A stretch of DNA of 64,000 bases, from NCBI GenBank assembly GCA_009993605.1, contig JAACTB010000007.1, positions 682,001 to 746,000 of the forward strand, read 5' to 3'. The position numbers were made by a program, and so were the translations under genes. This document shows positions 10,984 through 13,850 of the stretch, one piece after another. The notes under the pieces were generated by a model that worked only from the letters and a program-made list of their open reading frames with translations, did no database searches and had not been told where the DNA came from. Positions within the stretch are counted from its first letter, which is position 1. The number at the start of each line of letters is the position of its first letter. Origin of the DNA: Erythrobacter sp. GTDB lineage: Bacteria > Pseudomonadota > Alphaproteobacteria > Sphingomonadales > Sphingomonadaceae.

Positions 10984-12156
10984 TCAGGATAGCCGGTTGC
11001 GAAATTCCTCGTAACCGAATTCGCGCACGCATTCGAGCTGGTCGCTCTCGCTGTCCCACAGCCAGATCGAAGGCAGCGGCACGCCGTTGAAGGTGTTCGT
11101 CTTGACCATGGAATAATGCGCCTGGTCGAGAAAGGCGACACGCTGTCCCGACTCGTTCGGAACGGGCAGCGAATAATCGCCGATCACGTCGCCCGCGAGA
11201 CAGGATGGCCCGCCAAGCCTGACGGGGGCCTCGCCCGGCTGTTCGCCCAGCATCGCAGGACGGTACGGCGCCTCGATCACGTCTGGCATATGGCAGGTGG
11301 CCGATACGTCGAGAATCGCGAAGGGCACTTCGTTGGTTCCGGTGTCGAGGATGGTGCCGACGAGGATGCCCGCATCGAGCGCTACCGCCTCACCCGGTTC
11401 GAGATAGATCTCGGCGCCCGAATCCTCCTTCGCATCCTTCAGAAATTCCACCAATTCGTCGCGCTGATAGTCGGCGCGGGTGATATGGTGACCGCCGCCC
11501 ATATTGATCCATGTCAACTGGCCGAACCACGGTTCGATCGCATCGAACACCTTGTCCCAGGTCCGGTGGAGCGGCTCGAAATCCTGCTCGCACAGATTGT
11601 GGAAATGGATGCCGTCGATCCCCTCCATCATTTCGGGCGTCAGCTGATCGATGGGAAATCCAAGACGGCTGCCGGGGCTCGACGGATCGTAACGCGGCAC
11701 CTCGCCGGTCGGGACCTGCGGGTTGAGGCGCAGGCCGACATCGAAACTCTGCCCCGAAGCGCGTGCGTTTTCGAGGATCAAAGCGGCCCGCTCGATCTGC
11801 TGCGGCGAATTGAAGATGACGTGGTCGGACAGGCGGATGACCTCGTCCAGATCTTCCGGCTTGTAGGCGGCACAATAGGTGCTGATCTCGCCATCGTAAA
11901 ACTCGCTCGCGAGACGGGCTTCGTAGAGGCCGGAGGTGCAGACCCCGTCGAGATACTCCCCGATGATCGGCGCGGCGGAGAACATGCTGAAAGCCTTCAG
12001 CGCGGACAGCATCTTGATATCCGCCGCGTCGCGAATGTCGGCCAGCACCTGACAATTCGCGCGAAGCTTTGCGGCGTCAACGACGAAAGCGGGGCTGTCG
12101 ACGCGTGACAGGTCGAATTGGGCAAAAGCGCCCGGATCGCCGGCTCTGGTTTCCAT
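10984..12156 (-). CDS. nspC: carboxy(nor)spermidine decarboxylase (CASDC)
   Basis: Decarboxylates carboxyspermidine or carboxynorspermidine to spermidine or norspermidine, the last step of the SAM-independent polyamine route. The product is about 390 residues, alanine-racemase-fold PLP enzyme, with the PLP lysine in MLSALKAFSMF, VCTSGLYEARLA, INMGGGHHIT and a CHMPDVIEAPYRP segment containing the catalytic cysteine. The ATG at 12156 is preferred; a GTG at 12183 in frame lies inside the left arm of the inverted-repeat element, so that element abuts this gene's 5' end by 22 bp. Its natural partner, CASDH, lies beyond the element. Confidence 0.93.
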   Translation of the reverse strand: METRAGDPGAFAQFDLSRVDSPAFVVDAAKLRANCQVLADIRDAADIKMLSALKAFSMFSAAPIIGEYLDGVCTSGLYEARLASEFYDGEISTYCAAYKPEDLDEVIRLSDHVIFNSPQQIERAALILENARASGQSFDVGLRLNPQVPTGEVPRYDPSSPGSRLGFPIDQLTPEMMEGIDGIHFHNLCEQDFEPLHRTWDKVFDAIEPWFGQLTWINMGGGHHITRADYQRDELVEFLKDAKEDSGAEIYLEPGEAVALDAGILVGTILDTGTNEVPFAILDVSATCHMPDVIEAPYRPAMLGEQPGEAPVRLGGPSCLAGDVIGDYSLPVPNESGQRVAFLDQAHYSMVKTNTFNGVPLPSIWLWDSESDQLECVREFGYEEFRNRLS

Positions 12157-12178: not shown

Positions 12179-12202
12179 TTCACACGAAGACACGAAGATG
12201 TC
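12179..12202 (+). repeat. left inverted repeat of the GxxExxY unit
   Basis: 24-bp arm containing two offset copies of ACACGAAG. It is the exact reverse complement of 12606-12629. It holds the stop of the restored GxxExxY frame (12201-12203 partly) and the in-frame GTG at 12183 upstream of nspC. Confidence 0.9.
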
Positions 12203-12610
12203 AGCGCGTCGGGATCGTTCCGTAATAATCATTGGCGATGCGCCGCAGGCCGTCCTTGAAAGTGGCTTGCCCAAAATTCATGAGCAGGCCGAGCGGCAAA
12301 TTCGCTAAGCGCAGATAGGTCAAAACCTTTTTCCATGCACCGGCCCCAATCGCTCGATCGACTTCAGTTCGACAATCAACCGATTCTCTATCAAAAGATC
12401 GATCTTGAACGCATTGTCGATGACAATGCCATCATGCCGCAACGGCATGGAGACTTGGCGAGCAACCTTGATTCCTCGTCGCTCCAGCACCACCGCAATC
12501 AACGCTTCGTAAGCGCTTTCGAGAAGCCCCGGTCCAAGCTCGCAATGCAATCGAAAACCGCAATCGATTACGATACGAGCAAGCTCCTCCAGATCGGCAT
12601 CGCCGGACAT
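12201..12610 (-). pseudogene. GxxExxY family protein, split by a -1 frameshift
   Basis: Small protein family with a predicted PD-(D/E)XK nuclease-like core. The first frame (12610 down to 12320) encodes 96 residues with the eponymous GLLESAY (28-34) and a D71...E81-L-K83 pattern, then stops right after VHGKRF. A run of five A (minus strand, 12332-12328) marks the break. Slipping back one base after GGA AAA restores 42 more codons (KVLTYLRL...LMNFGQATFKDGLRRI) to a stop at 12203-12201, giving the family-typical 136 residues. So this is either a one-base deletion or -1 slippage at the A run. It is oriented like the flanking polyamine genes. Confidence 0.8.
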
Positions 12611-12629
12611 CTTCGTGTCTTCGTGTGAA
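12606..12629 (-). repeat. right inverted repeat of the GxxExxY unit
   Basis: 24-bp arm, exact reverse complement of 12179-12202. The ATG of the GxxExxY gene (12610-12608) lies in its inner end. The outer end is 10 bp from the stop of the CASDH gene. Confidence 0.9.
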
Positions 12630-12638
12630 CCGAAACGA

Positions 12639-13850
12639 CTAGAAATCCACCGGCCCGTCGAGTTCCTTGACCTGCCAGGGCAGGCCGTGGTCGTTGAGCA
12701 TATCCATGAAGGGGTCGGGGTCCATCTGCTCCATGTTGAAGACGCCGTCGCCTTCCCATGTGCCCTGCACCATCATGGCCGATCCGATCATGGCAGGCAC
12801 ACCGGTGGTGTAGCTGACCGCCTGATTGCCGGTCTCTTCGTAGGCCGCTTCGTGCGAACAGATATTGTTGATGTAAAAGGTCTTCTCTCCCGACCCGTCC
12901 AGCGCCTCGCCGGTCGCGATGACGCCGATATTGGTGTTGCCCTTGGTCGTCTCGCCCAGCGTTTCGGGCTTGGGCAAGACCGCGGCGAGGAACTGGAGCG
13001 GGATGATTTCCTTGCCCTGATACTTGACCGGATCGATCCGGGTCATGCCGACATTCTGCAACACGGTCAGGTGCTTGATGTATTCATCCCCGAACGTCAT
13101 CCAGAACCGCGCGCGTTCCAGTTCCGGGTTGAACTTGGCGAGGCTCTCCAGCTCCTCGTGATACATCATGTACATGTTCTTCTTGCCGACGGCTTCGAAG
13201 TCGAACTCGACCTTCTTGGCCATTGCCGGGGTCTCGACGAATTCGCCGTTTTCCCAGTGGCGGGCGGGCGCGGTCACTTCGCGGATGTTGATCTCGGGAT
13301 TGAAATTGGTGGCGAAGGCCTGCCCGTGATCGCCGCCATTGCAGTCGAGAATGTCGAGCTGGCGGATGGTCTTCAGCTTGTGCTTCTTGAGCCACATGGT
13401 GAAGACGCTGGTGACACCCGGATCGAAGCCGGAGCCGAGCAGAGCCATCAGCCCCGCTTCCTTGAAGCGGTCGTGATAGGCCCATTGCCAATGATATTCG
13501 AACTTGGCCTCGTCCTTGGGTTCGTAATTCGCCGTATCGAGATAATCGACGCCCGCTTCGAGGCAGGCGTCCATGATCGGCAGATCCTGATAGGGAAGCG
13601 CGAGATTGACGACGAGGCTGGGCTCGACCTTGCGGATCAGATTGACCATCGCCGGAACTTCCTCGGCATCGATCTCGTAGGTCGCGACATCGACGCCGGT
13701 GCGCTCCTTCACGCTCTTCGCGATGGCATCGCATTTCGATTTGGTGCGGCTGGCAAGATGGATCTCGGGGAAGATATCCTTGTTCATCGCCATCTTGTGG
13801 ACGCACACGCTGCTGACGCCGCCCGCGCCGATTACCAGAACTGTCGACAT
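12639..13850 (-). CDS. carboxy(nor)spermidine dehydrogenase/synthase (CASDH), saccharopine dehydrogenase family
   Basis: Condenses aspartate semialdehyde with putrescine (or diaminopropane) and reduces the imine with NADPH to carboxyspermidine, the substrate of the CASDC encoded downstream. The 403-residue protein opens with the Rossmann loop VLVIGAGGVSSVCVHKMA, followed by LASRTKSK (NADP discrimination) and LLGSGFDPGVTSVF. Length and these motifs fit CASDH better than lysine-forming saccharopine dehydrogenase, and the neighbouring CASDC settles it. The gene is first of the minus-strand polyamine block. The GxxExxY unit separates it from nspC. Confidence 0.9.
   Translation of the reverse strand: MSTVLVIGAGGVSSVCVHKMAMNKDIFPEIHLASRTKSKCDAIAKSVKERTGVDVATYEIDAEEVPAMVNLIRKVEPSLVVNLALPYQDLPIMDACLEAGVDYLDTANYEPKDEAKFEYHWQWAYHDRFKEAGLMALLGSGFDPGVTSVFTMWLKKHKLKTIRQLDILDCNGGDHGQAFATNFNPEINIREVTAPARHWENGEFVETPAMAKKVEFDFEAVGKKNMYMMYHEELESLAKFNPELERARFWMTFGDEYIKHLTVLQNVGMTRIDPVKYQGKEIIPLQFLAAVLPKPETLGETTKGNTNIGVIATGEALDGSGEKTFYINNICSHEAAYEETGNQAVSYTTGVPAMIGSAMMVQGTWEGDGVFNMEQMDPDPFMDMLNDHGLPWQVKELDGPVDF

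Follow-up and report, generated by a model that had tools for sequence, protein, structure and literature searches.

A frameshifted GxxExxY gene between perfect inverted arms in Erythrobacter, and the RAYT/REPIN-like two-part system of which it may be a copy

The window, a stretch of 64,000 nucleotides from Erythrobacter sp., contains a small unit made up of one gene between two inverted repeat arms, which lies between two genes resembling those of carboxynorspermidine synthesis. The features of the locus, in the direction in which the genes are read, were as follows:

12639..13850, minus strand: carboxynorspermidine synthase-like (CASDH) gene, with 9 bp from its stop codon to the unit
12606..12629, minus strand: arm upstream of the GxxExxY gene, minus-strand reading TTC-ACACGAAG-ACACGAAG-ATGTC, containing the start codon
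12626-12619 and 12618-12611, minus strand: octamer units of the upstream arm
12320..12610, minus strand: first part of the GxxExxY (PDDEXK_3) gene, from the ATG to a premature stop, 96 aa, with the D...E-x-K core
12201..12333, minus strand: second part of the GxxExxY gene, in a different frame, with the C-terminal motifs and a TGA that overlaps the arm
12179..12202, plus strand: arm downstream of the GxxExxY gene, plus-strand reading TTC-ACACGAAG-ACACGAAG-ATGTC
12182-12189 and 12190-12197, plus strand: octamer units of the downstream arm
10984..12156, minus strand: carboxynorspermidine decarboxylase-like (nspC/CASDC) gene, with its ATG at 12156, 22 bp beyond the unit

A reading made from the sequence alone had described a perfect 24-bp inverted repeat around this gene, and the repeat is real and exact. 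The arms at 12179-12202 and 12606-12629 measure 24 nt each, are 100% complementary with 403 nt between them, and each consist of two tandem ACACGAAG octamers. A seed scan for perfect inverted repeats only returned 15 perfect 14-mer seeds no more than 700 bp apart in the 64-kb window, 11 of which constituted the 24-bp pair, while the remaining four formed two 15-bp pairs; no other such repeat exceeded 15 bp.

The gene belongs to the GxxExxY family (TIGR04256, 82.2 bits against a cut-off of 35; PDDEXK_3, PF13366, 82 bits against a cut-off of 22), scoring above both curated cut-offs even though it is frameshifted in the window. The sequence-only reading had overlooked this decay and taken the gene as intact, with its start and stop codons inside the arms. 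The ATG (12610-12608, minus strand) does lie in the upstream arm, but the frame that it opens comprises 96 codons and stops at 12320, with the C-terminal motifs in another frame. Similarly, the TGA at 12203-12201 overlaps the downstream arm, but it closes the frame of the second part of a frameshifted gene. A programmed frameshift was considered in view of an A-run at the break. Decay is likelier, because 4 of the 21 GxxExxY loci of the genus, the window copy included, are broken in different ways. The other three broken genes (G028:C11:164315-164662, G045:C6:619514-619857 and G046:C94:283309-283515) show a stop, a frame break and a truncation. Since the window gene is frameshifted, its unit is probably no longer self-sufficient. 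The naming of the flanking genes stood as far as their best-matching families are concerned, although both scored below the curated NCBIfam cut-offs (carboxynorspermidine synthase, 388.8 bits against 800; decarboxylase, 380.1 bits against 409.05).

Only one GxxExxY gene was found in the genome of the window (2,988,900 bases in 29 contigs); no further copy with the same arm was found there, and the sole copy is broken. The arm itself, which the earlier reading had proposed to search for, did recur beyond the window. At up to three mismatches it gave nine matches in its own genome, one of them overlapping another. Together these make up four inverted pairs, of which one is the window unit and the other three span 69 to 127 bp and enclose no gene.

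Among 60 genomes of the genus, GxxExxY was present in 15, at 21 loci (23 rows, two loci being split in two pieces each). An arm pair was found at 20 of 22 locus rows, the two rows without one being the halves of one broken gene in G045, and the arms were built of tandem RCRCRRAG-like units. In a sample of the phylum, 40 of 396 genomes matched GxxExxY; 22 of the 30 phylum-wide loci listed had a pair score of at least 14 and 18 of at least 16, compared with 8 of 120 cross pairs that reached 14. Three of these eight had very high scores (39, 39 and 100), as expected from near-identical loci. A further set comprised 80 named loci, the best of 576 candidates that a single peptide pattern had yielded and that were confirmed; their arm pairs scored at least 14 at 66 of 80 loci and at least 16 at 58 of 80. 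The corresponding cross-locus controls were 41 of 400 and 21 of 400, raised because the arms of different loci share the unit, and off-site controls gave 1 of 68 and 0 of 68. Within these best 80 of 576, loci scoring 16 or more included members of Pseudomonadota, Verrucomicrobiota, Planctomycetota, Thermodesulfobacteriota, Lentisphaerota, Bacteroidota, Cyanobacteriota and Acidobacteriota. As with a RAYT, the gene was flanked by inverted copies of a repeat (20/22, 22/30 and 58/80 loci), and the proposal of a nuclease-fold gene paired with its own flanking repeats in RAYT style is well supported by the recurrence of the arms and by most loci tested elsewhere. Locus L292 carries a Sphingomonas-type GxxExxY gene in a record titled Arthrobacter sp. 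TPD3018, whose flanks are about 70-80% identical to Sphingomonas records; this record may be mislabelled or contaminated.

The expectation that every GxxExxY copy would have the same arm was not borne out: each copy has its own arm sequence, so that arms vary between copies and agree within a copy. The similarity of the arms also followed that of the proteins, with a Mantel rho of 0.492 (94 of 129 pooled loci, with pair score at least 16 and protein of at least 90 aa, the pool omitting four rows of broken or partial genes) and a maximum of 0.156 in 300 permutations. At 107 loci with a pair score of at least 14, the unit period was 8 in 75 loci, 9 in 13, 10 in 14, 11 in 4 and 12 in 1. All six GEY-type loci had period 10, as did eight other loci; unit length follows subfamily. 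The window unit is one instance of a widespread arrangement of gene and arms in which both parts co-vary.

In Sphingomonadales, an all-against-all comparison gave three recurrent chromosomal addresses among the matches listed, with sites assigned by hand: behind CASDH (10 loci), between fabD and fabG (19 loci, the genes named at L280), and in the interval from a 2-oxoacid oxidoreductase beta-like gene to a YdjM-like gene (10 loci, the genes named at L243). At these addresses, in the same order, the identity between the left and right arms of a copy was 0.945, 0.950 and 0.935, whereas left arms compared between species were 0.641, 0.758 and 0.732 identical, with about equal values on the right side; 2000 random re-pairings of arms reached at most 0.881, 0.891 and 0.907. 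Choosing the arms as the best inverted repeat favours their own left-right identity, but leaves the lower between-species value unexplained. Both arms thus change together between species at fixed addresses.

At the CASDH address, the comparison covered 58 loci from the 60 genus genomes, G006 giving no match and G052 only a piece at a contig end. A GxxExxY gene lay behind CASDH at 9 of the 58 loci, co-directional in all nine; the unit began no more than 12 bp from the CASDH stop codon at eight loci, and about 350 bp further at the ninth (G005). No clean empty site was found between CASDH and CASDC among the 58 loci, as both the spacer and the gene after it differ from locus to locus. With 9 of 58 loci occupied and no such site, the recent mobility suggested for the window copy was not borne out. 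In the protein tree, the eight CASDH-address copies fell into separate clades, and well-supported branches forced at least four label changes among the 19 labelled genus rows, in a tree whose other 80 rows were unlabelled and whose bootstrap had not fully settled. Judging from these clades, the spot behind CASDH was therefore probably filled more than once.

Pairs without a gene were dispersed in gene-bearing genomes, as REPINs are. At up to two mismatches, the arm pattern gave 0 to 63 matches per genome and was present in 39 of the 60 genus genomes; in genomes rich in matches these were mostly inverted pairs (by eye, among the matches listed). A set of 43 such loci, one of which (L191) contains a truncated gene, showed size classes near 70 and 117 bp. 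The number of units differed between arms, and some pairs were nested in pairs of another arm family, at 9 of the 43 loci by a fixed rule and by eye also at L154, L155, L325 and L326. In G021, a CTCACAGAGG-type pair was nested within a TTCACGCGGAG-type pair at L179, L180 and L181 alike, sites that include hisA-hisF and the surroundings of dnaE2. In G039, loci L152-L171 held many gene-less pairs of about 117 bp with interior GCGGCGAAGCCGC- or GCCTGCGGCGC-like palindromes.

The presence of these pairs was also compared with that of the gene. By eye, in genomes G000-G038, gene-less pairs were found in 5 of 7 gene-bearing genomes and in 1 of 32 that lack the gene (Fisher p = 2e-4), the exception, G038, being a 93%-complete draft. 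Family-blind raw counts of a 15-mer in the 60 genus genomes also differed (medians 5 with and 2 without the gene, p = 2.8e-5), but after subtracting four matches per gene-bearing genome the difference had p = 0.31; a few genomes carry this abundance signal. In other taxa, all of 34 genomes, hand-chosen from the best 80 of 576 and all gene-bearing, exceeded the reversed-pattern control (medians 30.5 and 2.5), some of them barely.

The clearest case of movement was found in dnaE2 of G021 (L181:428-632), a gene whose best family is error-prone DNA polymerase. Here a nested arm pair of 201 bp had been inserted in frame, adding 67 codons without a stop. The dnaE2 of G000, 91% identical across the junction, is without the insert, which lies between TTGG and GTGA. 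The target-site duplication of DDE insertion sequences and MITEs was absent at this one base-clean site. Compared with G000, eight of ten G021 pairs (L179-L183 and L322-L326) were absent and two sites were occupied in both genomes (L182 with L009, L183 with L011). The dnaE2 site was the only one of them resolved to the base, the seven other absences having less clean borders: at L179, whose flanking genes are presumably hisA and hisF, G000 has some 160 bp of different sequence, and the remaining intergenic G021 pair regions are too changed relative to G000 for base-level borders. In the other direction, no pair like L010 of G000 was found at the matching place in G021 and G034, where the flanks have diverged.

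At the shared site L009 (G000) and L182 (G021), the two genomes have different arms and opposite orientations of the interior: its alignment scored 62 in inverted and 29.5 in direct orientation, with a maximum of 47.5 in 500 shuffles. The G021 arms at L182 carry the CCGCGAAG unit common to this genome's own GxxExxY arms. Over 48 gene-less pairs from six genomes, the preference for the arms of the own genome was weak (a fraction of 0.0385 of 2000 label permutations); the G000 and G028 pairs fit the arms of another genome slightly better than their own, and eight G021 pairs fit those of G051 best. Regarding the choice of target, insertion into the loops of GC-rich hairpins found no support, the pairing of an element's own flanks not being above that of cross pairs (seven short elements, own mean 6.14 and cross 8.29; 32 longer elements, 5.44 and 5.33). 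Since TTTGG-like flanks lie directly outside the arms of the 32 longer elements and TTTGG also occurs at the empty dnaE2 site, TTTGG may be a target preference.

The AlphaFold2 model of the protein, based on 62 sequences, had a mean pLDDT of 95.6 and consisted of two helices, three strands, a helix and two strands. Across 62 sequences D71, E81, K83 and Q95 were invariant and Y99 nearly so, and the modelled protein has the alpha/beta core with D and E-x-K of PD-(D/E)XK nucleases. The motif Q-x3-Y marks the RecB/Cas4 group. A Foldseek comparison with the PDB returned Cas4 (4r5q) as the best match at E 0.005, with no match below E 0.001, followed by a splicing endonuclease, SSO0001 (4ic1), Bax1 and lambda-type exonucleases; 4ic1, which we take to be a Cas4, had the highest query TM among the top rows, up to 0.56. 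These matches weakly suggest that the predicted fold is nearest to Cas4-type nucleases. The gene is chromosomal and, like RAYT genes, rarely found on plasmids: with one query protein, GxxExxY occurred on 8 of 72,556 plasmid records and on none of 50,697 phage records. No PADLOC defence family matched the three proteins submitted. Passages of earlier papers mention a gene, adjacent to a reverse transcriptase, that one tool called GxxExxY and another cas4, and list GxxExxY in a viral gene table.

We give a little better than an even chance to the reading that the GxxExxY element consists of a chromosomal Cas4/RecB-like PD-(D/E)XK nuclease gene together with the inverted arms that its product recognises, with the gene-less pairs as its non-autonomous copies. 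In such an element, the two or three tandem 8-10-bp units of each arm would be the recognition sequence of the nuclease, and gene-less pairs of about 70, 117 and 130-200 bp would relate to it as REPINs do to a RAYT. At replication the arms would be exposed as single strands or extruded as a cruciform, GxxExxY would bind the units and cut at the arm edge, and host repair would copy the arm-bounded segment to a new place or overwrite resident copies with it. Overwriting by host repair would keep both arms of a copy alike and let the interior flip. What we infer from these patterns is that the nuclease binds its arms, cuts them and is the driver of their copying.

Inverted arms around a gene could also act in the transcript, where as a cis-regulatory RNA they would pair to hide the start codon from read-through translation or to end the transcript; selection for pairing alone would then keep the arms matched, and gene-less pairs would be terminators or relics. 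In the RNA fold predicted for the unit, the arms do pair and the start codon is part of the stem (native sequence only), and the gene is co-directional with the upstream CASDH in all nine cases. However, pairing selection alone does not spread the same octamer tandem to gene-less pairs throughout a genome, nor does it account for the 201-bp dnaE2 insert or the nested pairs (9/43). A known RNA family found no support either, ten sources giving no Rfam match at gathering score, and we regard the regulatory explanation as unlikely. Template switching can preserve the match between arms and invert an interior with no enzyme involved, so that tandem-octamer inverted repeats might simply change by template switching, slippage and gene conversion, the gene merely lying inside them; the variable number of units between arms fits this as well. 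Such changes explain neither why GxxExxY loci are bracketed but off-site stretches are not, nor insertion at new sites, and we consider it very improbable that no dedicated enzyme is involved.

The arm pairs might instead be moved in trans by another enzyme, a RAYT/TIRYT or an unseen transposase, with GxxExxY as a passenger or bystander. RAYT-type genes can have long terminal repeats that also occur dispersed, according to passages of PMC3733652, and Y1 genes do occur in G039 and G028, two genomes with many pairs. Against this, Y1_Tnp genes were found in 5 of 60 genus genomes and were absent from G000 and G021, which carry pairs; of ten Y1 loci, the nine examined had no arm pair, one of them showing a single near-match on one strand; and a pure passenger is not expected to covary with the arms. 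A RAYT as the mover thus found no support in the Y1_Tnp distribution over 60 genomes or in the nine Y1 loci, and a mover in trans seems to us improbable. Two weaker Y1_Tnp matches in G039, RAYT-like by inspection, have repeats of their own without relation to those of GxxExxY, namely tandem terminal repeats of GGGGACAG / GGTTCCGGGGACAG type at L355 (C13) and a short palindromic GGGACAGTCCC repeat at L354 (C3).

GxxExxY and its arms are best read as a two-part system that resembles RAYT/REPIN but is based on an unrelated PD-(D/E)XK nuclease. More tentatively, and at somewhat less than even odds, they may represent a pan-bacterial class of genome-resident elements in which a lone Cas4/RecB-like nuclease, without a transposase, maintains, converts and copies the DNA within its own tandem-unit arms. 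In that case many short tandem inverted repeats that now lack an explanation would owe their existence to GxxExxY, a multicopy family without known function. If the RAYT/REPIN-like reading is right, a dispersed-repeat system in REPIN style would exist on a nuclease unrelated to RAYT, and the short inverted repeats of Alphaproteobacteria, Verrucomicrobiota, Planctomycetota, Bacteroidota and other groups would gain a candidate owner. The arms supply a predicted substrate readable from the sequence, and binding and cleavage are therefore directly testable. The in-frame dnaE2 insert demonstrates that a gene can gain protein sequence from an element of this kind. No description of the association between GxxExxY and the arms was found in the open-access literature, most subscription journals lying outside the search, and six arm strings of 15-16 letters, TIGR04256 and PDDEXK_3 had no mention in the open-access literature searched, where PF13366 came up once.

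Several known systems share parts of this design. The multicopy sequences of Geobacter metallireducens, for example four tandem heptanucleotides GGACCGG, also consist of tandem short units and lie between and inside genes, but their unit is different and the relevant passages of PMC2700814 link them to no nuclease gene. Rickettsia palindromic elements of about 150 bp insert in frame in genes, as the dnaE2 insert does, whereas they have a CGTC tag at one end in place of the TTCAC-type end of the GxxExxY arms; the passages on them name no cognate gene (PMC10969869, PMC3733652). TIRtrons or TIRYTs likewise have a small gene enclosed by long inverted terminal repeats, and some of these repeats are dispersed as well, but in the passages describing them that gene is a Y1 transposase and some repeats share GGGGWSAS (PMC3733652). 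The GxxExxY unit has no Y1 gene between its repeats, and the repeat of TIRtron kind seen around one Y1 gene of G039 (L355) is distinct from the arms of GxxExxY.

Cas4 has an iron-sulphur cluster. GxxExxY keeps the order D, E-x-K, Q-x3-Y of Cas4/RecB nucleases and has Cas4 4r5q as its best Foldseek match, but it is much shorter, has no cysteine among its invariant or nearly invariant columns, and its matches are weak, none reaching E < 0.001. The closest likeness is to RAYT (TnpA-REP) genes and their REPINs, described in passages of PMC8049555 and PMC8266576 as chromosomal genes, usually in one or few copies, rarely plasmid-borne and long resident at one place, which are flanked by their own repeat in inverted orientation, with similar gene-less inverted pairs elsewhere. 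RAYT is a Y1 HUH transposase, whereas GxxExxY is a predicted PD-(D/E)XK nuclease (PF13366), and G000 gave no Y1_Tnp match. REPINs are GTAG-tagged hairpins, whereas the GxxExxY repeat consists of tandem 8-10-bp units, the outer ends reading by inspection TTC-(octamer)n without a GTAG-tagged palindrome. Because enzyme and repeat both differ, the GxxExxY system is not a member of the RAYT/REPIN family, yet it is the RAYT/REPIN systems that it would work most like.
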